Positions 20,333 through 23,976 of a DNA stretch of 39,290 nt are shown one piece after another (positions within the stretch are counted from its first letter, which is position 1; every line of letters begins with the position of its first letter). The notes beneath the pieces are model-generated. The model was not told the DNA's origin and did not search any database. It saw only the letters and a program-made list of their open reading frames with translations. The DNA comes from a virus: positions 1 through 39,290 of the IMG/VR virus record IMGVR_UViG_3300046736_000044. One strand, given 5' to 3'. The position numbers and the translations under genes are program-made.

Positions 20333-20577
20333 GAGCGACCCTGTGGGTTCACTACCGGGACGGGGGCCGGGCGCTCGTCCCGATCCGGGACACACCGTTA
20401 CGGATCTACTACCTGTGGCGCCGGCTCGGCACCGTGACGCACTGGGCTGGCCGGCCCGTTAAGCGCTGTGTCCTGCACCTTGTCCCGCCACCGTTCGGTG
20501 ACGTGCTGGCGACCCTGCTGGGGTTCGCTGTGATGGCCGGGCTCGGCGCGTGGATGGCAATCAAAGGGCTCGGATAA
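20329..20577 (+). CDS. Small protein with C-terminal membrane segment
   Basis: An 82-residue protein from GTG 20329, overlapping the methyltransferase stop (GTGA). The N-terminal part is basic and beta-like (ATLWVHYRDGGRALVPIRDT, HWAGRPVKRCVLHLVPPP). Residues about 58-80 form one hydrophobic helix (VLATLLGFAVMAGLGAWMAI). It could be a tail-anchored membrane protein. No family is recognised and no role can be argued beyond early coexpression. Confidence 0.6.
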   Translation: MRATLWVHYRDGGRALVPIRDTPLRIYYLWRRLGTVTHWAGRPVKRCVLHLVPPPFGDVLATLLGFAVMAGLGAWMAIKGLG

Positions 20578-20612
20578 CCGATGACCCACCAACAACCGAA
20601 GGACAATCCGAC

Positions 20613-21824
20613 ATGACCGCACCATCCGCAGAGTTCCAAATCGGGACCGCCGACCTCCGCCGAGGGCTGCTCGCCCTCGCGCCGCACGTGAACACCGACC
20701 CCGACCGGGCCGACACCCACCGAATCCGCTTCGAGCTCGGTGACGAAGTGGTCCTACTGGCCACCGATGGTTACACCGCCGGCATGTACGCCACATCCGC
20801 GGATCACGTCCGAACCTTCAACCACGACTACGTAGACATCACACCCTCGGATGCTCAGAAGATCCTGGCCGTGTTCAAGGCCGGGAAGGACGAGGACGCC
20901 GACTACCCCGACTCGGTGCTGCAGTTCGAGGCGACGGAGAAGGCGCTCCGCATCCGTGACATCAGTGGGATGTTCGCCGGCCACGAGCTGGACCTACCGG
21001 CCACACCATCGGGGGAGTTCCCGAACGTGGCCCGCCTGTTCCGGGACCGCCTCGAGATCGCCGCCCCGCCGTCGTTTGACGACGACACGGTGCAGGTCAA
21101 CGCGAAACTACTGGCCCGATTCAGCGTGTCGGGGAAGCAGATCGGTGGGCCGCTCACCATCGACACCAGCACGAGCCCGTATCTGGTGGCATCGGGTGAG
21201 GTGTTCGTGGGTTTGCTCATCCCATCCCGGATCACCGACGAGATCCGCGGCACCCTGCGGGACACGCTCCGCCGGTGGACTGACACCGCACGCCGGGTAG
21301 CCGGTGCCCACGCCGGGCGGAAGGCCGACGAGTCGGCCCTGTCTGACCGGCTGGTGGCCGCAGTGAAGCACGTTGGTATCAGGCAGGCCGCGACCGTCCT
21401 AGGAGTGGCTGAGGGGCTGTCAATCGGTCGGGCTGAGGCCGCTGATCTGTTGCTGTCGATGGAGGGTCACGGGTTGATCGAACGGAAGGGGAAGAAACGA
21501 ACCGTCTTGTTCGCGCCGGATGAGGTTGACCGGGTGTTGTGGCGACTCGCTAACCCCGGGCAAACGGAGGTTGACCCGATGACCGAGGCGGAGGCAGCCG
21601 AGCTCGGGGAACCGATCGACCTGCCCGACATGCCAACCGGCACCGAGATGGAGTGGCCGCCGGCCGATGCGTTCAAGGTCGACCCGGACGATTCGACGCT
21701 TGCCGGGGTTGCCCTGCCGCCCGTGTCGCCGTTCTCGGACACGCCTGCGCCCCCGTCACCGTTCACTGACTCCGATGGCAACGAGTTGCCGACCGCGCCG
21801 ACATCGCCGTTCGATACGCCGTAG
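20613..21824 (+). CDS. Two-domain sliding-clamp-like protein fused to FtsK-gamma-like winged helix
   Basis: A 403-residue protein from ATG 20613 (GAAGGA 16-21 bases upstream). Residues about 8-235 resemble the last two domains of DnaN: VLLATDGYTAGMY recalls the TDGYRLA motif, and PLTIDTSTSPYLV...VGLLIPSR recalls the clamp C-terminus (PMRL end). Residues about 240-310 resemble the FtsK gamma winged helix: LSDRLVAAVKHVGIRQ, LSIGRAEAADLLLSMEGHGL, IERKGKKRTVLF. The tail is acidic and Pro-rich with three SPF motifs (SPFSDTP, SPFTDS, SPFDTP). It may tether host polymerase or other replication proteins to phage DNA. The clamp assignment is inference from pattern. Confidence 0.72.
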   Translation: MTAPSAEFQIGTADLRRGLLALAPHVNTDPDRADTHRIRFELGDEVVLLATDGYTAGMYATSADHVRTFNHDYVDITPSDAQKILAVFKAGKDEDADYPDSVLQFEATEKALRIRDISGMFAGHELDLPATPSGEFPNVARLFRDRLEIAAPPSFDDDTVQVNAKLLARFSVSGKQIGGPLTIDTSTSPYLVASGEVFVGLLIPSRITDEIRGTLRDTLRRWTDTARRVAGAHAGRKADESALSDRLVAAVKHVGIRQAATVLGVAEGLSIGRAEAADLLLSMEGHGLIERKGKKRTVLFAPDEVDRVLWRLANPGQTEVDPMTEAEAAELGEPIDLPDMPTGTEMEWPPADAFKVDPDDSTLAGVALPPVSPFSDTPAPPSPFTDSDGNELPTAPTSPFDTP

Positions 21825-21831
21825 AACGCCG

Positions 21832-21877
21832 AGAGCCGGTCACCTGTCCCGAGGGGTGTCGGCAGGTAACCGGCTCT
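21832..21877 (+). terminator. Long hairpin after the clamp gene, no U-tract
   Basis: Arms AGAGCCGGT (21832-21840) and ACCGGCTCT (21869-21877), extended by one mismatch and ACCTG/CAGGT inside, loop about 16 bases. It starts 7 bases after the clamp stop. No T-run follows, so it is either a U-less actinobacterial terminator or an RNA-stabilising structure. Confidence 0.7.
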
Positions 21878-22004: not shown

Positions 22005-22568
22005 GTGAGCATCGAAGCTGTCGCATGGGTGCTCCGGGAAGCGCCAACGACCGACGCAGAATCCACGCTCATCCTGTTGGGTCTGGCGAACCACGCACAC
22101 CACGACGGCACCGCGGCATGGCCCGGGCAGGCGACCTTAGCCCGGTATGCCAGGTCCAGTGAGCGCACAGTGCGCCGGCGGCTGGTCGAGATGGAAGCGG
22201 CCGGAATCGTGATCCGCGGGGATCAGCAGATGGTTGCGCACCTACCCGCGAACCGTCGCCCGGTGGTGTGGGACATCCCGGGAGTTATCCACAATCAGGG
22301 GGGACAGGCTGACCGGGCAGACTCGGTCAGGGGGGACAGGAACGACAATCAGGGGGGACAGGATCAGGGTTTAGGCCGGTCACTGGTGGCCGACAAACCG
22401 TCCTTAGAACCATCAGAGAAAACGTCCTTAGAGACCAAGATCAGATTTGCTCCGGTTTCTCCGCTGCTCGCTTCGCTTCGCGCGGAAACCCCGCTCCCCG
22501 CCCCGACGTGCCCGCACGGCTCGAAACCGTGGAGATGTGAGACATGCCGCCCCGCATCGAACGGATAG
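22005..22568 (+). CDS. Replication-initiator-like winged-helix protein
   Basis: A 187-residue protein from GTG 22005. Residues about 1-75 have the helix-turn-helix replication protein pattern: SIEAVAWVLREAPTTDAEST, ILLGLANHAHHDGTAAWPGQ, ATLARYARSSERTVRRRLVE, MEAAGIV. After VVWDIPGV the coding sequence runs through a DnaA box and three iterons that give a Gly/Gln/Asp-rich linker (NQGGQ units). The C-terminus has a short cysteine motif (CPHGSKPWRCETCRP). The arrangement mirrors lambda O, whose gene contains the origin to which the protein binds. No helicase or primase is encoded nearby, so host replication proteins would be recruited. Confidence 0.78.
   Translation: MSIEAVAWVLREAPTTDAESTLILLGLANHAHHDGTAAWPGQATLARYARSSERTVRRRLVEMEAAGIVIRGDQQMVAHLPANRRPVVWDIPGVIHNQGGQADRADSVRGDRNDNQGGQDQGLGRSLVADKPSLEPSEKTSLETKIRFAPVSPLLASLRAETPLPAPTCPHGSKPWRCETCRPASNG
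22285..22432 (+). other. Candidate replication origin: DnaA box, iterons, AT-richer segment
   Basis: TTATCCACA at 22285-22293 is a perfect DnaA box. TCAGGGGGGACAGG occurs exactly at 22295-22308, 22327-22340 and 22349-22362 (spacings 32 and 22, near whole helical turns), with a partial ATCAGGG at 22363-22369. About 35 bases later CGTCCTTAGA is repeated at 22399-22408 and 22423-22432 in an AT-richer stretch that could unwind. All lie inside the initiator gene. Confidence 0.75.
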
Positions 22569-22834: not shown

Positions 22835-23212
22835 ATGACCGAGCACACCGCACCGAAGCTGAACGACGCAGGCTTTCCGGTGCTCACCCAGGCCGAGCAG
22901 GACAACACCACCGCCGCGGAATGGGCCGCCGCGCAGGAGCTCGCCGCCGCGAACAACGGCCGGCTCACGGACGACCCGGCACCGTTCGACCCTTGGGCCA
23001 CCCGTGCCGCGCTGCTCGCACTGAATGAGCAGGTAACCGCAGCGTGGCGGTCGCTGAGCACCGAGAACGCGGCGCATGGCCGGACCACCGGCGACCCCGC
23101 ATGGTTGCGTGAGGATGCACTGTGGACGCTCATGGACGCGATCAACGCCGCGTCAACGGCTGCTCACCTTGCCTACGCGGTGGACCGCACCCTCAACGGG
23201 CCGACCCGATGA
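22835..23212 (+). CDS. Hydrophilic Ala-rich protein, first gene under P2
   Basis: A 125-residue protein from ATG 22835 with ribosome site GAAAGGG 6-8 bases upstream. It is mostly helical: FPVLTQAEQDNTTAAEWAAA, WATRAALLALNEQVTAAWRS, WTLMDAINAASTAAHLAYAV. It is acidic near the N-terminus. As the first gene of the P2 transcript it should be expressed early and strongly, so a host-takeover role is possible, but no family is recognised. It overlaps the next start as ATGA. Confidence 0.65.
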   Translation: MTEHTAPKLNDAGFPVLTQAEQDNTTAAEWAAAQELAAANNGRLTDDPAPFDPWATRAALLALNEQVTAAWRSLSTENAAHGRTTGDPAWLREDALWTLMDAINAASTAAHLAYAVDRTLNGPTR

Positions 23213-23976
23213 CCTACTACAAGGCAACCCGACCGGACGGAACCGATTTCCACACAGGCACCGTGGATTACGGGTCCGCGCTGCTCACCGGTGACCCGCT
23301 CGTCCACCCGACCGCCGGGTCTGAGGATTTCGCCCGGGATGACGCAACTTTCTACTTCTCGGTTGCTACCGTCCCCACGGATTGCACCGGCATGTCGTGG
23401 CCTTGCAGGTTGTTCGAGGTCGAACCAATAGGGGAAACGTGGCAGCCCGATGTCCGGGGACTGCCGAACAAGGTTGCGTGCCTGTCGTTGCGGGTTGTTC
23501 GTGAGCTTGACGCGGTGGATGCGTTCGGGCCGCAGGGTGCGCAACTGCGGGACCTGATCGGGCAGGCCGCGAATGTCACCAAGTCGCAGGCGAGGGAGTT
23601 AGCCGCCGCTCGGGTCGCCGCTCGGGTCGCCGCTGGGGTCGCCGCTTGGGTCGCCGCTGGGGTCGCCGCTCGGGTCGCCGCTTGGGTCGCCGCTCGGGAC
23701 GCCGCTTGGGTCGCCGCTGGGGTCGCCGCTGGGGTCGCCGCTCGGGACGCCGCTTGGGTCGCCGCTGGGGTCGCCGCTGGGGTCGCCGCTCGGGACGCCG
23801 CTTGGGACGCCGCTGGGGTCGCCGCTGGGGTCGCCGCTTGGGACGCCGCTTGGGACGCCGCTCGGTCGCTCAACGTCCGTGACCTCATCAGCGAAACCGG
23901 GTTCACTAAAGCTCATTACGACCTACTGACCGGCCCATGGGCCAGTGTGATGGGAAAGGTCCACCCCAATGACTGA
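23209..23976 (+). CDS. Protein with 22 tandem tetrapeptide (V/D-A-A-R/G/W) repeats
   Basis: A 255-residue protein from ATG 23209. Residues 1 to about 125 are a normal domain resembling phage DUF7666-like proteins: MTYYKATRPDGTDFHTGTVD, FYFSVATVPTDC, RLFEVEPIGETWQPDVRGLP. Bases 23602-23865 then encode 22 consecutive tetrapeptides, xAAx, where position 1 is V or D (once A) and position 4 is R, G or W. The C-terminus (LNVRDLISETGFTKAHYDLL) caps the array. Similar DAAW/DAAR arrays occur in other phage proteins and some immunity-like proteins. The periodicity suggests a regular helical stack; the function is unknown. Confidence 0.75.
   Translation: MTYYKATRPDGTDFHTGTVDYGSALLTGDPLVHPTAGSEDFARDDATFYFSVATVPTDCTGMSWPCRLFEVEPIGETWQPDVRGLPNKVACLSLRVVRELDAVDAFGPQGAQLRDLIGQAANVTKSQARELAAARVAARVAAGVAAWVAAGVAARVAAWVAARDAAWVAAGVAAGVAARDAAWVAAGVAAGVAARDAAWDAAGVAAGVAAWDAAWDAARSLNVRDLISETGFTKAHYDLLTGPWASVMGKVHPND
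23602..23865 (+). repeat. 12-base tandem repeat array, 22 units
   Basis: Unit G(T/A)CGCCGCT(C/G/T)GG. All variation is at two positions: T/A in codon 1 (V or D) and C/G/T in codon 4 (R 7, G 8, W 7 units). A higher-order 48-base unit, DAAW-VAAG-VAAG-VAAR, repeats twice, indicating past slippage or unequal recombination. Confidence 0.95.

Follow-up and report, generated by a model that had tools for sequence, protein, structure and literature searches.

A lambda O-type layout points to a replication origin within the initiator gene of an uncultured actinobacterial phage

Positions 22285-22451 of the window (the whole stretch of DNA analysed, i.e. the 39,290 nt of virus record IMGVR_UViG_3300046736_000044, positions 1-39,290) very probably constitute a theta-type phage replication origin embedded in the initiator gene. 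The source of the record is an uncultured phage of actinobacteria. On the sequence evidence taken as a whole, an intragenic origin of the lambda O layout is well supported, and a direct role of host DnaA at this origin is moderately favoured. Since the record carries a terminal direct repeat of 127 bp, it is consistent with a circle of 39,163 bp, the size given in the original prediction. The features discussed below are compiled in Table 1.

Table 1. Features of the putative origin region and of the adjoining gene (positions refer to the window).
Feature	Position	Strand	Remarks
Sliding-clamp-like gene	20550-21824	+	phrog_947 (2.7e-5); upstream of initiator gene
Initiator gene	22005-22568	+	187 aa, GTG start; HTH_36 and phrog_1032 matches
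DnaA box TTATCCACA	22285-22293	+	one base 5' of iteron 1; sole perfect match in record
Iteron 1, TCAGGGGGGACAGG	22295-22308	+	exact; one base after DnaA box
Iteron 2	22327-22340	+	exact copy of TCAGGGGGGACAGG; 32 bp after iteron 1; different reading frame
Iteron 3	22349-22362	+	exact copy of TCAGGGGGGACAGG; 22 bp after iteron 2
Putative degenerate iteron 4, TTAGGCCGGTCACT	22371-22384	+	in 22-bp register; 8/14 matches
Predicted DNA unwinding element	22392-22451		nearest-neighbour stability scan
Three AACCGTCCTTAG-type units	22396-22431	+	12-bp steps; strand-specific second origin element of the family

In profile searches the initiator matched HTH_36 (2.2e-7) and, among PHROGs, phrog_1032, named 'replication initiation protein' (8.9e-16), followed by weaker matches to PHROGs 8540, 678 and 391, which are named 'replication initiation O-like'. 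The profile match is accompanied by the conserved MS..A..WAL start, and both place the protein in the HTH_36/phrog_1032 family. The protein consists of an N-terminal winged helix, a linker that is encoded by the origin region and predicted to be disordered, and a C-terminal CPHG..W.C..C(R) motif. An AlphaFold2 model reached a mean pLDDT of 93-98 at residues 1-90, which adopt a winged-helix-like fold, and was of low confidence beyond. When this model was compared with the PDB by Foldseek, only generic MarR-like winged helices were retrieved, none of them with E <0.001, and a phmmer search of the PDB gave nothing useful. Among viral models, many phage HTH proteins were matched, including the putative replication protein O of Escherichia phage Min27 (1.4e-5). 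The iterons, the DnaA box and the AACC units are all encoded by the linker 3' of the winged-helix domain, in agreement with the earlier placement of these elements within the coding sequence of a winged-helix replication protein. The C-terminal motif of the initiator (CPHG..W.C..C) is of the zinc-knuckle type, and such CxxH...CxxC(R) motifs recur in actinobacterial members, for example L012, L026, L027, L033, L107, L109 and L161.

Relatives were gathered from phages, plasmids, viral contigs and prokaryote genomes, yielding 113 non-redundant core members; a first scan of genome contigs gave no confirmed relative. The family includes phages of Arthrobacter, Gordonia and Pseudomonas as well as elements in genomes of Micromonospora, Cellulomonas, Nocardioides and Streptomyces. 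Most members share a common layout 3' of the HTH domain: three to six direct repeats, often ACGGGGTGCA or GGGGGGACA, are followed by AACC units. The repeats are mostly located at +280 to +400 of the gene, and the mode of their spacing is 22 bp.

The three exact 14-bp iterons of the record were found at the originally described spacings of 32 and 22 bp, and no further copy with up to two mismatches is present in the record. A partial fourth copy had also been proposed. The motif TCAGGG at 22364, 15 bp past iteron 3, is out of register, but a degenerate copy that follows the 22-bp register can be recognised, and relatives L006, L007, L022 and L031 have GGCCGGTCA/GGCCGGACA iterons at this place. 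Iterons 1 and 3 are in the same reading frame, iteron 2 in a different one. Three copies of even a 10-mer arose in none of 5000 synonymous recodings of the initiator gene. At least four copies of an 11-mer (two mismatches allowed) occur in 104 of 110 family genes as compared to 32 after codon shuffling. Such comparisons show the iterons to be under selection at the DNA level. An inverted half is frequently seen at the end of the last iteron (GGGGTGCA...TGCACCC; L015, L025, L036 and L066), which suggests dyadic binding sites for initiator dimers.

The iterons are followed by an easily melted tract that starts at 22392 and corresponds to the AT-richer stretch noted before; its 60 bp form the second-weakest duplex of that length in the 39,163-bp genome. 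Within it, the repeated CGTCCTTAGA that had been reported is present, not as a pair but as two of three AACCRTC-type units, which start at 22396 (AACCGTCCTTAG), 22408 (AACCATCAGAGA) and 22420 (AAACGTCCTTAG). Units of the type AACC(G/A)T(C/A) occur in 77 of the 113 family genes. AACCGTC was counted 102 times in 40 kb of family linkers versus 35 times in 518 kb of flanks, a 38-fold enrichment, and its orientation in the linkers is strand-specific (102 forward, 1 reverse complement). Spacing between units ranges from 10 to 13 bp and is most often 11 bp, no multiple of 3. In the family, the first unit begins 23-24, about 34 or 46-47 bp past the last GGGG-core iteron, i.e. at whole helical turns; in the record, the first unit belongs to the 46-47 class when measured from iteron 3, and lies 25 bp from degenerate iteron 4. 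Among 58 high-GC members, 33 have their first unit within the least stable 2% of the locus, as opposed to 6% of control positions; part of this weakness stems from the base composition of the unit itself. Like the iterons, the AACC units are shown by family-wide comparison to be under DNA-level selection.

The perfect DnaA box TTATCCACA of the original prediction was likewise found. As a box arises in 581 of 5000 synonymous recodings of the initiator gene (about 12%), the one in the record is not beyond chance and, taken alone, could be a product of the encoded peptide. At the level of the family, TTATCCACA occurs 16 times in the linkers of 95 high-GC members versus 0.37 expected from the flanks; reversed or scrambled controls gave no match in the same linkers, and boxes are about 43-fold denser in the linker than in the immediate flanks. 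At least one box, in either orientation, is present in 17 of the 95 high-GC genes, so that most relatives lack it, and it appears to have been gained on about 11 lineages (11-12 changes by parsimony). All 15 PVDN peptides in linkers are encoded by CCT GTG GAT AAC, the opposite strand of which reads GTTATCCACAGG, even though GAT makes up only 22% of linker Asp codons; this strict codon choice shows selection on the DNA for the box in the family. A selected DnaA box beside iterons, as in a DnaA-assisted iteron origin, is found at the level of the family but is not significant in the record alone. A later and smaller sampling of 29 additional members added boxes in L263, L276 and L277. Recurrent gain of a docking site for host DnaA suggests that these phages borrow the start machinery of the host.

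Substitution of the box for a helicase-recruiting C-terminal tail was considered and rejected as a rule, as L276 has a YPRK..WLN tail together with two boxes. Known tails (O-type or YPRK) were found in none of 17 box-bearing genes versus 43 of 96 others (Fisher 2e-4), with P rising to 0.055 after phylogenetic correction and being 0.14 for the YPRK tail alone. The box is also associated with C-terminal CxxH..CxxC motifs (Fisher 0.007, kinship ignored).

As a positive control, lambda gene O was read; the four iterons annotated in it begin at +348, +368, +392 and +415 (spacings of 20, 24 and 23 bp), and the interval from +348 to +432 is close to the location of the repeats in the present family. 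In lambda, the iterons lie in gene O after the DNA-binding domain and are followed by an AT-rich tract (PMC7466680). The record shows the same order, with iterons in the initiator coding sequence past the DNA-binding domain, here a winged helix at the N terminus as in the lambda O family, and an adjoining easily melted tract. The proposal of a lambda O-like intragenic origin with a host DnaA box is supported, as relatives show this arrangement at the same place, a melting-prone tract adjoins the iterons and selection for the box is seen across the family. The resemblance is one of layout and not of direct sequence: the initiator and lambda O have no alignable similarity (BLASTP E 2.7; hhalign probability 0.1%). 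The C-terminal domain of lambda O, present in 15 of the 113 relatives, is absent from the initiator, and so is the YPRK..WLN tail of Arthrobacter phages. Through modular relatives that join the same N-terminal domain to the C-terminal domain of lambda O, such as L066 (BLASTP 3e-11), the family is nevertheless tied to lambda O. The record further differs from lambda in having a DnaA box inside the gene, no P gene, and phased AACCRTCC units in place of a plain A-rich tract.

Neither DnaB nor DnaC/IstB was matched in the record, and no primase or polymerase was detected among the 27 ORFs scanned with PHROGs. An adjacent helicase-loader gene was not recognised either (no IstB/DnaC match and no P-like PHROG among the 27 ORFs), though an unrelated loader could escape such detection. 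Combination of a host DnaA box with this gene content had been regarded as striking. Lambda, however, encodes no helicase, primase or polymerase and relies on those of the host, so a phage without its own helicase is not special in this respect. Moreover, lambda itself has DnaA-protected sites near pO (PMC3985674), and DnaA boxes are routine beside plasmid iterons, as detailed below. The sliding-clamp-like gene upstream matches genes of Gordonia phages annotated as DNA polymerase III sliding clamp, and its product is a possible replication partner of the initiator. Relatives of this gene are annotated inconsistently as sliding clamp, FtsK-like translocase or RusA-like resolvase. Between both genes lies an inverted repeat (21832-21877; 15-nt arms, 93% complementary, 16-nt loop), which is likely a terminator or operator. 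A 12-bp repeat, CGCCGCTGGGGT, is present in about 21.6 copies at 23604-23869 within ORF 23122-23976 and encodes AAxV-type tetrapeptide repeats. The GC-skew plot that had been suggested as a check was uninformative; nearly all genes are on one strand, and no switch occurs near 22 kb.

Arthrobacter phages Leona, Galaxy, Abidatro and Andrew encode a protein annotated as HTH or 'replication initiation protein' that is 39-52% identical in its N-terminal part, and their genes have iterons and tandem AACCGTCC units at the matching place. RusA and DNA methylase genes are close by, and no phage DnaB was found in the records tested. In contrast to the record, these proteins have a YPRK...WLN..RWED C-terminal domain and their genes lack a DnaA box. 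Gene 54 of Pseudomonas phage JBD68 (gp54) likewise has in-gene iterons (AACGGGGTGCAAC), mostly spaced by 22 bp and followed by CCGTC/AACCA units, but this phage has its own DnaC-like loader and DnaB, and no DnaA box. Origins of the iteron plasmids RK2, P1, F and pSC101 are located outside the rep coding sequence. They resemble the record in combining iterons with DnaA boxes, which are routine there (PMC4980987), and differ in their Rep proteins; the unwinding element of RK2 holds 13-mer repeats (PMC10797057).

From the layout and by analogy with lambda and iteron plasmids, protein binding, melting, helicase loading and a part for DnaA are inferred as follows. The winged-helix initiator would bind the 22-bp-phased iterons and wrap the DNA, and the resulting strain would melt the adjoining AT-richer AACCRTCC tract, at which host DnaB helicase could be loaded. 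Host DnaA at the box beside iteron 1 probably aids melting, helicase recruitment or both, given that no phage helicase or loader is recognisable and the initiator lacks both C-terminal domains of its relatives; this is the least certain step. A broader proposal, put forward tentatively, is that actinobacterial phages and prophages repeatedly recruit host DnaA to a lambda O-type origin via the extended box GTTATCCACAGG in the initiator coding sequence, and that the helicase lands on single-stranded DNA at the helically phased, strand-specific AACCRTCC array, in which case a minimal initiator devoid of a helicase-recruiting tail would suffice.

A competing possibility of some weight is that the same origin works with no direct part for DnaA: the initiator alone might melt the DNA and recruit DnaB, or the box might merely tune initiation or transcription as in lambda, where transcriptional activation of the origin is the known DnaA effect according to works cited in PMC3985674. 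The absence of the box from most family members and the chance level of the one in the record are in line with this possibility, whereas its recurrent independent gains and strict codon choice show that selection acts on it within the family. Plasmid DnaA boxes titrate DnaA (PMC5835720), but a site that titrates the host protein or serves regulation, with no connection to the origin, is improbable here in view of the concentration of boxes in the origin-bearing linker. Still less probable is that the repeats are operators through which the HTH protein controls its own operon, negatively or positively, with the origin elsewhere. Iteron initiators often autoregulate, and the best, albeit weak, PDB matches of the model were MarR-type regulators; the sites, however, are found about 290-370 nt into the gene and not at a promoter; they adjoin a duplex whose stability ranks second-lowest in the genome, and their arrangement is that of the lambda origin. 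That the repeats are simply a by-product of low-complexity peptide sequence in the linker (NQGGQ, EPSLEPS) is hardly credible, since the predicted disorder of the linker and the recurrence of EPS-like peptides are set against iteron copies in different frames, the failure of synonymous recoding to reproduce them and the 11-bp peak of AACC unit spacing.

Two elements of the preferred origin reading appear to be new, namely the AACC array with its phasing and strand specificity, and the DnaA box that evolved repeatedly within a coding sequence, both known here from sequence alone. Searches of the open-access literature, where absence is weak evidence, yielded no description of an AACCRTCC array, nor of DnaA boxes inside actinophage genes. 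Many actinobacterial phages lack recognisable replication machinery, and the start sites of their DNA synthesis are mostly unmapped. The sequence rule that emerges, 22-bp iterons followed about two turns on by AACCRTCC units at 11-12 bp inside an HTH_36 gene, allows origins to be predicted with near base-pair precision for about one hundred phages and prophages, and the involvement of host DnaA becomes directly testable in laboratory phages.
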